Positions 7,766 to 51,729 of a stretch of DNA of 64,000 bases are shown here, piece after piece (within the stretch, counting starts at the first letter, position 1; each line of letters opens with the position of its first letter). A model generated the notes under the pieces. It ran no database searches. It saw only the letters and a list, made by a program, of their open reading frames with translations, and was not told where the DNA came from. Position numbers and translations under genes: made by a program. The stretch spans positions 1-64,000 of the forward strand of contig JACTMO010000062.1 in assembly GCA_014584605.1 (NCBI GenBank), read 5' to 3'. Source of the stretch: Bacteroidota bacterium. GTDB lineage: Bacteria > Bacteroidota > Bacteroidia > Flavobacteriales_F > PHOS-HE28.

Positions 7766-7828
7766 CGGCCCTCCCGGGGATGTCCACGGCCCGGTCGAGG
7801 CTGCATCATCACCACGATCCCGAGCACT

Positions 7829-7870
7829 GCATATTTTATGTAGTGTATTTTATGCAGCGTATTTTACGTA
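7829..7870 (+). repeat. Three exact-period 14-bp tandem repeats upstream of the AAA ATPase
   Basis: Three adjacent 14-mers (7829-7842, 7843-7856, 7857-7870) fit G(C/T)(A/G)TATTTTA(C/T)G(C/T)A. The TATTTTA core starts at 7832, 7846 and 7860, an exact 14-bp period. The block is strikingly AT-rich in GC-rich DNA. It runs directly into the candidate -7 box and ends 10 bases before the ATPase start codon, so it is probably a binding site for a regulator or for the ATPase itself. That function is inference. Confidence 0.8.
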
Positions 7871-7876
7871 CCTTCG
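7869..7876 (+). promoter_or_regulatory. Candidate -7 box (TACCTTCG) of the AAA ATPase
   Basis: TACCTTCG ends only 4 nt before the ATG at 7881, and its first two bases are the last two of the third 14-bp repeat. If functional, transcription would start at or inside the start codon, giving a leaderless mRNA. Confidence 0.45.
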
Positions 7877-7880
7877 GGGC

Positions 7881-9005
7881 ATGGATGAGGGGTTCAATCC
7901 CTTCCTGCTGCAGGGCTACGAGGGCCCCGACACCTTCTGCGACCGCGCCACGGAGCTGGCGTTCCTGAAGGATGCCATGGCCAACCAGCGGAACGTGAGC
8001 CTCATCTCGCTGCGCCGCCTGGGCAAGACCGCACTGGTCCGGCATTTCTTCGCCGGCCAGCGGAGGTTCACGCCCGTGTTCGTGGACCTGTACCGCACGG
8101 TGGACCAGCAGGACATGGTGCTGCGCATCGTGCGGGAGACGGTGGCCCAGGTTGGCAAGCCCAGCGGGGCCTGGCTGCGCGAAGTGGGCCAGGCCATCCG
8201 CTCCATGGAGTTCAGCCTGCATTTAGATGCGATCACCGGCCTGCCCGAATTCGGCGTTTCCGCACGGCCGGGCGAACCGAAGACCCCGCCCTTGGACGAG
8301 CTGTTCCGCTTCCTGGAACACCGGAAAAAGCGGGTGGTGATCGCCCTGGACGAGTTCCAGCAGGTGGTGGAGTATCCCGAACGCAATACCGAGGCCCTGC
8401 TGCGCGAACACGTACAAAAGCTGCGGAACGTGCAGTTCATCTTCTCGGGAAGCGACCGGCGGATGATGCAGGCCATCTTCGCCCACGGCAAGCGGCCTTT
8501 CTACCAAACCACCGAACCGCTGTACCTCGGGCCCATCCCCGCCGGGGAGTATACTGCGTTCATCCTCCGCCATTTCGCCAAAGGCAAGCGCCGCATCAGC
8601 GAAGCGCTCGTCAAACAGGGCCTGGGTTGGTGCCGCGGCCACACCTACTACGTGCAATACCTCTTCAACCGCCTGTACGGCCTGGCCCTGCGCCATTACG
8701 AGGCCAGGGATCTCGCCGCCGTGCAGACCAGCATACTGAAGGAGCGCGCCCCCGAGTACATGACGCTGAAACGGCTGCTCAGCCCCAACCAGGCCGTGCT
8801 GCTGGAAGCCATCGCCAAGGAAGGTGTCGTGGCAAAGCCCCTGGCCATGGCGTTCCTCCGGAAACACGGGCTGAGCGCCCTGAGCACCGTGCGCCAAAGC
8901 CTGGGCGTGCTGCTGGACAAGGAGCTGCTGCACCAGGCGGAGGACGGCTACCGCCTTACGGACGTCTTCCTGGGCCATTGGCTGGCCGGGACCCATGAAC
9001 CGTGA
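7881..9005 (+). CDS. AAA family ATPase of the archaeal-ATPase-like (STAND-related) group
   Basis: The 374-residue product has a P-loop written SLRRLGKT (residues 43-50), where the usual first Gly is Ser, and a Walker B IALDEF (154-159, Asp157 and Glu158). FSGS near residue 192 is a sensor-type segment. Residues from about 280 form a winged-helix-like C-terminal domain (LSPNQAVLLEAIAKEG). This architecture is typical of the archaeal ATPase/DUF234-type NTPases that are scattered through Bacteroidota, whose cellular role is largely unknown. It stands alone, with its own repeat-decorated promoter, and has no toxin or nuclease partner next to it. Confidence 0.82.
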   Translation: MDEGFNPFLLQGYEGPDTFCDRATELAFLKDAMANQRNVSLISLRRLGKTALVRHFFAGQRRFTPVFVDLYRTVDQQDMVLRIVRETVAQVGKPSGAWLREVGQAIRSMEFSLHLDAITGLPEFGVSARPGEPKTPPLDELFRFLEHRKKRVVIALDEFQQVVEYPERNTEALLREHVQKLRNVQFIFSGSDRRMMQAIFAHGKRPFYQTTEPLYLGPIPAGEYTAFILRHFAKGKRRISEALVKQGLGWCRGHTYYVQYLFNRLYGLALRHYEARDLAAVQTSILKERAPEYMTLKRLLSPNQAVLLEAIAKEGVVAKPLAMAFLRKHGLSALSTVRQSLGVLLDKELLHQAEDGYRLTDVFLGHWLAGTHEP

Positions 9006-25000: not shown

Positions 25001-28000
25001 CGAACCCCGCACAGAGCGGTCTGATGGCCACCGGCCTCACGGCCGGCACCTACACGGCCTCGATCACCGATCAGAACGGCTGCCCGCTGGTCGCCACCGT
25101 GAATGCCGTCATCGGTGGCCCGACCGCAGCCCTGGGCCTGAACGCGGTCACCACCGACCCCACGTGCTCCAGCGGCAGCACCGGAGGCATCGACCTTACG
25201 GCCAGTGGCGGCGTTGGCCCTTACACCTTCACGTGGTCCGGTCCGGGCGGTTACACCAGTGCATCGGAGGATCCGGGTGGTCTTGCCGCCGGGGCCTATG
25301 CGGTGTCGGTGACCGATGCGCATGGCTGCACGGCCTCCGCGAGCTGGACCCTGGGCCAGCCTGACGCCCTGAGCGTAACTGCGGTCGTCACCGACCTGCA
25401 ATGCCGCAACGACCTCTCAGGCGCCCTCACCATCGCACCGACCGGCGGCACAGGCGCGTACAGCTATGCCTGGTCCGGTCCGAACGGGTACACCAGTTCA
25501 TCGGAGGACCTCAGTGGTCTTGCCGCCGGGACCTACACGCTGCTCCTGACCGACGCGAACGGCTGCACGACCACATCGAGCTGGACCCTCGCCGAACCGG
25601 CAGCGCTTGTCGCAAGCATCGCAAGCCAGGCCCCTGCCGCCTGCCATGGCGGTGCGACGGGAAGTGCCACGGTGAATGCCACCGGCGGAACAGCGCCCTA
25701 CACCTACAGCTGGAACACGAACCCGGTGCAGACGAACGCCACGGCCACGGGCCTGGCCGCCGACACCTGGACCTGCACGGTGACCGACGCACATGGCTGC
25801 ACGGCCGCTGTCGATGTCCTCATTGGCCAGCCCGCCGCACCGCTGAGCACCGCCATTGGATCCACCACTGCGGTGAGCTGCTTCGGTGCTGCCAACGGCA
25901 GCGCCACGGTGAACGCCACCGGCGGCTCCGGTCCGTACAGCTTCCAGTGGAACACGAACCCCGTGCAAAGCGGTGCCACGGCCGTCAACCTTGCCGCAGG
26001 CTCCTGGACCTGCACGGTGACCGATGCCCATGGATGCAGTGCCGCGCAGGCCGTGACCATCTCGCAGCCCGCCGCACCGCTGGCCGCCTCCATCGGGGCC
26101 ACCACACCCGCAGCCTGCTTCGGTGAAGCGACCGGTACGGCCACCGCGACCGCTGCGGGCGGTACGCCCCCCTACAGCTACAGCTGGAACACGAACCCGG
26201 TGCAGACGAGCACCACGGCCACGGGCCTGGCCGCCGGCACCTGGACCTGCACCATCACCGATGCGCAGGGCTGCGTGAGCAGCGCCCAGGCCAGCGTGGG
26301 CCAGCCTGCCGCCGCCCTCGCCACCACGGCATCCATCACTCCCGCCGCCTGCCAGGGCGCGAGCAACGGCGCCGTGGACCTGACCACCACCGGAGGAACG
26401 GCACCGTACACCCACCTGTGGACCGGTCCCGGGGGCTTCACCGCCTCCACGGCCGACATCAGCGGCCTCGCCGCTGGCGTGTACCAGCTCACCGTCACCG
26501 ATGCGAACGGCTGCACCCTGGCCAGCAGCTGGAACGTGAACCAGCCGGGCCTCTTCACCGTGAGCGGCAGCGCGACCACCTATCCCGGCGGCGCGCATGT
26601 AAGCTGCCCCGGTGCCGCTGACGGCAGCATCGCGATGAGCGTGAGCGGTGCCACCCCGCCCTACACCTTCGCCTGGACCGGACCGAACGGTTTCAGCGCC
26701 AGCAGCGAGGACATCAGCGGTCTTGCGGCGGGCACCTACACCATCACGGTCACGGACGACAACGGGTGCGCCGCTTCGGAGACCTTCGTGCTGAACGCGC
26801 CGCAACCGGTGCAGGTGCAGCTGGTGGCAGCCGACCTGGGCAACGGGTTCGGTGTATCGTGCCACGCGAGCACCGACGGCAGTATCGATGCGAGCATCAA
26901 CGGCGGCGTTGCTCCGCTGTCCCTGCTCTGGACCGGCCCCAACGGGTACACCTCGAACAATGAGGACATCAGCGGCCTGTCCGCCGGACCGTACGCGCTG
27001 GTCGCCACGGACGCCAACGGTTGCACGGCGAACGCTTCGGTGGTGCTCACCGCTCCGGCCGCGCTCGTGCCGGACATCTCCGCCACCACCGACGCGCTCT
27101 GTCACGGGGACCTCTCCGGAACGGCCAGCGCCAGCATCATCGGCGGCGTCGCTCCGCATCAGTTCTCCTGGAACACCGTACCGCCCCAGCTCTCCGCCAA
27201 CGCCACCGGGCTTGCGGCCGGTAACTGGACCGTCACCGTCACCGATGCGAACGGATGCACGGCACAGGAGGTGGCCACCATCGGCCAACCTGCCGCAGCG
27301 CTGAGCGCCACCATCGCGGTCCAGACCGACGCGGCCTGCCAGGGCGCCTCGGACGGAAGCGCCACCGTGAACGCGACCGGAGGGACCGGCCCGTACACCT
27401 ATGCCTGGAACACCAACCCCGTGCAGAACGGGGTCACGGCCACCGGCCTCGGTGCCGGGACCTGGACCTGCACGGTGACCGACGACCATGGCTGCAACAC
27501 CACGGTGGACGTGGCGATCGGCGAACCGGTCCTCGCGCTCAACGCCGTTGCCACGCTGCTGAACCCCGTGAGCTGCCACGGCGGTAACGACGGTTCCGCC
27601 ACGGTGAACGCCCATGGCGGCACCGCACCCTACACGTACAACTGGAACACCGTACCGGTGCAATCGGTGGCCACGGCGACCGGCCTTTCGGCCGGCACCT
27701 GGACCTGCACCATCACCGATGACCACGGCTGCACCACCACGGCGAACGTGCAGGTGACACAGCCTGCCGCTGTGCTCTCCGCCACCGTGAGCGGCACCAC
27801 CGACGTGGCGTGCTCGGGCAACACCGGCAGCGCCAGCGTGCTGGCCACAGGCGGCACCGCGCCCTACACCTACGCCTGGAACACGGTGCCCGTGCAGACC
27901 GCGGCCACCGCCACCCAGCTCGGCACCGGCACCTGGACCTGCACGGTCACCGATGCCAATGGATGTGGCACTGCGGTGAACGCCGTCATCAGCGCACCTC

Positions 28001-50928: not shown

Positions 50929-51729
50929 ATGGGACAGAAAGCACACCCCACCGGCTCGCGCCTCGGCTACATCAAGGGCTGGGACAGCAACTGGTATGGC
51001 GGCAACGACTACGTCGACAAGATCGTCGAGGATGAGCGCATCCGCCAGTACCTCATCGCCCGCCTAAAGAAGGCCAGCGTGAGCAAGATCATCATCGAGC
51101 GCACCCTCAAGCTGGTGACCGTCACCATCAACACGGCCCGCCCCGGCGTGATCATCGGCAAGGGTGGAGCCGAGGTGGACAAACTGCGCGAGGAGCTCAA
51201 GAAGTTCACCGGCAAGGACGTACAGCTGAACATCTTCGAGATCAAGCGCCCCGAACTGGACGCCAAGCTGGTGGCCGACAGCATCGCCCGCCAGCTGGAA
51301 GGCCGTATCAGCTTCCGCCGCGCCATGAAGATGGCCGTGGCCAGCACCATGCGCATGGGCGCCGAGGGTATCAAGCTCACGGTGGCCGGCCGCCTCAACG
51401 GGGCGGAGATCGCGCGCACCGAGAGCTACCGCGAGGGCCGTGTGCCCCTGCACACCCTGCGTGCCGACATCGACTTCGCCATCAGCGAGGCCCACACCAA
51501 GATGGGACGCATCGGGGTGAAGTGCTGGATCTGCCGCGGCGAGGTGTTCGGCAAGCGTGACCTGAGCCCCAACGTGGGCCAGCAGAAGGGTCCCAAGGGC
51601 CCGGGGCCGCGCCCGATGGGCGAGCGCCGTGGAGGCGGTGAGCGCCGCGGAGGCGGTGAGCGCCGTCCGGGCGGGGAGCGTCGTCCGGGCGGGGAGCGTC
51701 GTGGAGGAGGTAACCGCAGCAATAACTGA
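50929..51729 (+). CDS. rpsC: 30S ribosomal protein S3 with Arg-Gly-rich repeat tail
   Basis: A 266-residue mRNA-entry protein, longer than the E. coli form (233). A KH domain with [18 protein letters not shown] and the C-terminal S3 domain ending [13 protein letters not shown] are intact. The extra tail is five ERR(G/P)GG-type hexapeptides followed by NRSNN, encoded by five 18-bp tandem repeats. Such a tail could bind RNA; its function is unknown. Confidence 0.97.
51622..51711 (+). repeat. Five 18-bp tandem repeats inside rpsC
   Basis: Five exactly in-phase 18-mers start at 51622, 51640, 51658, 51676 and 51694, encoding [30 protein letters not shown]. The repeats differ by a few bases, and the copy number could vary among relatives. 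Confidence 0.9.

Follow-up and report, generated by a model that had tools for sequence, protein, structure and literature searches.

Positions 7830-7868 of the window (the whole stretch of 64,000 nucleotides that was analysed) likely form a cognate operator that is bound by the product of the downstream gene, an AAA+ ATPase, and that most likely serves to autorepress a leaderless transcript. Both the binding and the sign of control are inferred, there being no binding or expression data. The features concerned are as follows:

7830..7840, + strand: operator unit 1, CATATTTTATG, a near-palindrome (from the sequence and the 14-bp array)
7844..7854, + strand: operator unit 2, TGTATTTTATG (from the sequence and the 14-bp array)
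7858..7868, + strand: operator unit 3, CGTATTTTACG, immediately before the -7 box (from the sequence and the 14-bp array)
7869..7876, + strand: -7 box of the Bacteroidota type (TAnnTTYG), TACCTTCG, ending 4 nt before the ATG at 7881
7881..9005, + strand: AAA+ ATPase of the archaeal ATPase_2 kind, 374 aa (from Pfam, an AlphaFold2 model and solved folds)
8784..8987, + strand: C-terminal winged helix-turn-helix, residues 302-369 (from the AlphaFold2 model)
8880..8918, + strand: predicted recognition helix, residues 334-346, with Gln339 as presumed specificity residue (an AlphaFold2 helix containing the top covarying column)

Repeat Block and Promoter

The core TATTTTA starts at 7832, 7846 and 7860, in steps of exactly 14 bp. 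The operator unit is an 11-bp near-palindrome (NNNA-WWW-TNNN), and three such units, separated by 3-bp spacers, fill positions 7830-7868. Tandem Repeats Finder reported a repeat at 7832-7870 with a period of 14, 2.8 copies, 84% matches and a score of 57. The sequence TATTTTATG, with at most one mismatch allowed, occurs three times in the 64-kb window (0.49 occurrences expected), each time within the block. For the 120 bp upstream of the gene, ca. 2% of dinucleotide shuffles reached the observed tandem-palindrome score. The array by itself is thus only moderately improbable, and it is conservation in the family that decides.

An earlier note, made from the sequence alone, had described an exact triple repeat of a 14-mer that runs into a -7 box ending 4 nt from the ATG. 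The triple repeat at 14-bp steps, the three TATTTTA positions and the box (TACCTTCG, 7869-7876) were confirmed. "Exact" held in part: the period is exact, the copies (CATATTTTATG, TGTATTTTATG, CGTATTTTACG) are not. The 14-mer unit was refined to an 11-bp dyad plus a 3-bp spacer, with the extent 7830-7868.

The consensus of the Bacteroidota -7 box is TAnnTTTG (PMC7366714). Of 16 close homologues, 15 have a TAnnTTYG-type box that ends exactly 4 nt 5' of the annotated start codon, and the ATPase mRNA is therefore predicted to be leaderless, with its 5' end at or beside the ATG and the operator not transcribed. Relative to the ATG the operator spans -51 to -13 and so takes up the part of the core promoter that precedes the -7 box; since it ends at this box, it would lie outside the mRNA here and act as DNA. 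Among the well-defined cases in the family, 42 of 59 have a TAnnTTYG box that is at most 20 bp away from the operator, on one side or the other, or overlaps with it (a count given without a background rate). Such proximity is what steric repression would allow.

Other repeats were seen in the window. An 18-bp tandem repeat (GAGCGCCGTGGAGGCGGT) is present in five copies at 51622-51711 and is probably coding; a 237-bp tandem repeat with 2.6 copies at 25666-26274 probably corresponds to repeated protein domains. Two short 7-bp arrays (CAGTTGC and GACAACC), whose period is not a multiple of three, lie near each other at 59732-59793.

Conservation among Homologues

Homologues were found in 37 of 98 genomes of relatives, and in 80 named contigs kept from 539 matches. 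The 120 bp upstream of each homologue start were scored for the palindromy of two 11-mers plus their mutual identity, with steps of 11 to 18 allowed and the period thus left free; promoters of neighbouring genes served as controls. The best step was 14 bp in 92 of 122 homologue promoters versus 31 of 241 neighbouring-gene promoters, and a score of at least 16 was reached by 92 of 122 (75%) and 11 of 241 (5%), respectively. Tandem palindromes are present in most homologue promoters, and their conservation and periodicity are shown by computation, while the sequence of the unit varies by subfamily: it is CATAAATTATG in congeneric genomes and CGCATTTTGCG, CGTAATTTACG, CATATTTTATG, CACATTTTGTG or CGGAATTTCTG in other Bacteroidota. 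Similar arrays also occur in contigs labelled Fibrimonadaceae, Melioribacter and Neomarinimicrobiota, and a distant clade has a 15-bp step and a different core (GGTATAATACC, GTTASTAAC).

Among the controls, four reached a score of at least 18. One of the top two, from contig L087, turned out to be the promoter of a second family member, whose CATATTTTATG stands beside the CGCATTTTGCG of its neighbour; it is the only family-type 14-bp control of the four, and we regard it as an unplanned positive control for family-type operators.

Not every relative has an array. No clear tandem operator was seen at the promoters of a subfamily with an MNPFSYGTIVK or MNPFKYGKIV N-terminus (L190-L195, L197), which may be otherwise regulated or may have lost DNA binding. 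Plasmid homologues outside Bacteroidota (Geobacter, Vibrio, Marinomonas, Arcobacter and Malaciobacter) have arrays not clearly above shuffles (p 0.035-0.69). A Bacteroidales subgroup (L096, L097, L107, L109, L110, L114, L125 and L180) carries a TATAATTATTATATTTGCAATAAAA-like promoter element and no 14-bp array.

Restriction of the Sites to ATPase Genes

In its own genome, a pair of units is found in one place only, this promoter. When eight congeneric genomes were searched with CATAAAWTATGNNNCATAAAWTATG (three or fewer mismatches), all 22 strand-wise matches lay directly upstream of family ATPases; the reversed pattern, used as a control in the same genomes, gave two matches. The sites, being confined to ATPase promoters, do not define a regulon and belong to the ATPase gene. 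Paralogues within one genome mostly have different sites. An autoregulatory operator is expected to stand before its own gene, to be conserved with it and to be private to it; the array meets this criterion, its privacy being shown by computation.

The earlier note had proposed that gene and repeats would form a unit if relatives keep the repeat, and that the sites serve a regulator or the ATPase itself. The former is supported, as most relatives keep the array, and an upstream survey of the kind that it had suggested recovered the 14-bp period in 92 of 122 promoters. Neither outcome named as a refutation was met: close homologues do have the repeat, and unrelated neighbouring genes have it less often. 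The latter is also supported, and the ATPase itself is favoured as the binder because the sites covary with its own recognition helix (see below) and are absent elsewhere in the eight congeneric genomes. Cooperative binding remains an inference.

The ATPase Protein

The match of the protein to Pfam ATPase_2 (PF01637; E 7.6e-7) falls just under the curated cut-off (29.6 versus 33.2 bits), and its match to the AAA_14 profile is just above the cut-off; two homologues that are 70-73% identical to it (G001 and G004) pass the ATPase_2 cut-off. The AlphaFold2 model is confident (pLDDT 89.7, pTM 0.86). Its nearest solved folds are 2qen and 2fna (ranks 1 and 2, TM 0.67-0.72), followed by Cdc6/Orc1 bound to origin DNA; the fold assignment is thus shown by computation. 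The winged-helix elements in the model comprise helices 302-314, 323-328 and 334-346, a hairpin (350-353/356-359) and helix 362-369. Helix 334-346 is assigned as the recognition helix by topology in this predicted model.

Walker A (GK[ST]) and Walker B (DE) motifs are both present. Across 54 sequences G48, K49, D157 and E158 are invariant and T50 is nearly so; from this invariance we infer that ATP hydrolysis is likely retained. The claim that Walker A has Ser in place of its first Gly also held by sequence (SLRRLGKT). The Orc1/Cdc6 initiator equivalog profile was not met (11 versus 311 bits). Anti-phage defence models of PADLOC gave only weak matches, to the candidate PDC-S27 (18 bits), and a defence role for the ATPase is unsupported.

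Covariation of Residue 339 with Operator Base 3

The scan compared variable columns of the protein with the three outer positions of the operator half-site. The top pair was residue 339 and operator base 3 (z 8.2; 6.2 for the next pair), and residue 339 lies in the middle of the recognition helix in the confident model. Arg339 occurs with C in 25 of 27 cases and Gln339 with T in 14 of 15. When the analysis was limited to strong operators and less than 70% identity, with new homologues added, Arg was paired with C in 13/13 cases and non-Arg with non-C in 18/18 (Fisher p 5e-9, a value that assumes independent cases). Contacts of Arg with G and of Gln with A are standard chemistry.

A tree built from the protein minus its C-terminus showed 10 changes of Arg and 11 of C; independent pairs differed in the same direction or not at all, almost never in the opposite one. 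A phylogeny-controlled pairs test was not significant (1.9 pairs the same way and 0.0 opposite, of 4), there being too few supported pairs. The rule is obeyed by homologues with 14-bp sites that had no part in its discovery (L149, L184 and L186 with R and C; L148 with Q and T); in the distant 15-bp-step clade (L201) the Arg-C rule does not apply. The operator-calling rule (an A/T centre) was fixed after the sequences had been inspected, and some registers are ambiguous. The residue-base covariation itself is shown by computation.

In the L087 contig, one operator lies at 1647-1671 before one gene, and the second family gene starts at 2992. These paralogues differ both in operator (CATATTTTATG, CGCATTTTGCG) and in residue 339 (Ile, Arg), which makes them a natural orthogonality test.

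Genomic Context

In most congeneric genomes, a gene for an M1 peptidase directly precedes one for an LpxH-like phosphoesterase, with no ATPase between them; here, as in two other genomes, the ATPase gene and its operator lie between the two. No terminal inverted repeats or target duplications were seen at the compared junctions. Of 80 loci, at most four share any one neighbouring gene family, and the strand of the downstream gene is nearly random (43/35). We conclude that the ATPase gene and its operator form a patchily gained orphan accessory gene. A mobile-element reading is unsupported, with neither terminal repeats nor a recurring neighbour. With only one relative in viral contigs, the gene is not as a rule carried by phages. 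Bacteroides plasmid records H2-H4, H6 and H8 contain homologues in two to three aligned pieces, perhaps decaying copies.

Discussion

We propose that ATPase protomers would use helix 334-346 to bind the tandem palindromes, and that the bound ATPase would shut off transcription of its own gene, a negative autoregulation inferred from the way the sites cover the core promoter as far as the -7 box. ATP or an unidentified signal would then alter assembly on the 14-bp-phased array and release the promoter. Steric autorepression is the simplest reading of the operator's position. Physical binding, repression rather than activation, and ATP as a switch are inferences, as is cooperativity.

Several other explanations were weighed. 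The ATPase might bind its sites as an activator or use them as an assembly platform, in an ORC- or DnaA-like spiral, rather than act chiefly as a repressor. Its fold does resemble that of Cdc6/Orc1 bound to origin DNA, and three 14-bp units make 42 bp, or four helical turns, which would be compatible with a spiral. However, the operator touches the -7 box or overlaps with it, and its position, before or after the box, varies among homologues, which suits repression better than activation with a fixed geometry; a platform is also at odds with the absence of replication genes and of any conserved neighbour. We therefore hold this explanation to be unlikely. It is much harder to maintain that a different, unlinked regulator occupies the sites. 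Direct demonstration of contact between the ATPase and DNA is lacking, but in eight genomes no gene other than the ATPase gene has the sites; they differ between paralogues of one genome, and their sequence covaries with the recognition helix of the ATPase itself.

There is even less to recommend the view that the repeats are not an operator but replication iterons or one end of a mobile element. Their geometry is iteron-like, their presence is patchy (many congeneric genomes have an empty M1 peptidase-LpxH site), and some homologues are on plasmid records. Against this, a single gene is involved, with no transposase or replication gene nearby; the compared junctions show no terminal inverted repeats or target duplications; and the array stays at the promoter in every context. 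Finally, the block could be no more than AT-rich promoter DNA that arose by chance, or else an element of RNA, given the only moderately rare single-window score (ca. 2% of shuffles) and a terminator-like hairpin flagged at 7824-7846. Both can be all but ruled out: chance is refuted for the family by conservation against controls, and transcription from this promoter does not include the block, which precedes the -7 box.

Proteins of the ATPase_2 type are widespread among archaea and bacteria; for two of them, structures were solved years ago, yet no function is known. A DNA target of their own in a large bacterial branch provides a direct handle on what such proteins do, and the target site, the reading residue and the simple specificity rule (Arg339-C, Gln339-T) can all be tested at the bench. 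If autorepression by the ATPase is correct, the paralogues would constitute natural repressor-operator sets of differing specificity in Bacteroidota. A bolder reading, which we consider no more than possible, is that these solitary ATPases, acquired patchily, make up a large family of ORC-like fold, in which private 14-bp-phased operators differ between paralogues and follow a readable residue-to-base code, and that they may form an ATP-controlled spiral on their own promoters, each being a self-contained one-gene switch or sensor. No prior description of such operators was found in the literature searched, the coverage of which was partial.

Comparison with Known Systems

The archaeal ATPase_2 members SSO1545 (2fna) and PAB2304 (2qen) are the best PDB folds, matching over nearly the whole chain (E 1e-13 to 1e-15), and share with this ATPase a P-loop with RR-x-GKT and a C-terminal winged helix. 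Unlike them, it is bacterial and falls under the curated Pfam cut-off. The cognate tandem operator is documented here for the bacterial ATPase; promoters of the archaeal members were outside the comparison. Cdc6/Orc1 (2qby, 2v1u) likewise combine an AAA+ domain with a DNA-binding winged helix, but identity is ca. 15% and TM ca. 0.5, and the ATPase has no origin context and has its sites at its own promoter. Several phased sites before a DNA-binding protein's own gene are also known from classical autoregulators, which have tandem operators, and from plasmid Rep proteins, which have iterons. The system described here differs from both in that the presumed binder is an AAA+ ATPase and in that its sites are short 11-bp dyads with a 14-bp period, which differ among paralogues of one genome.
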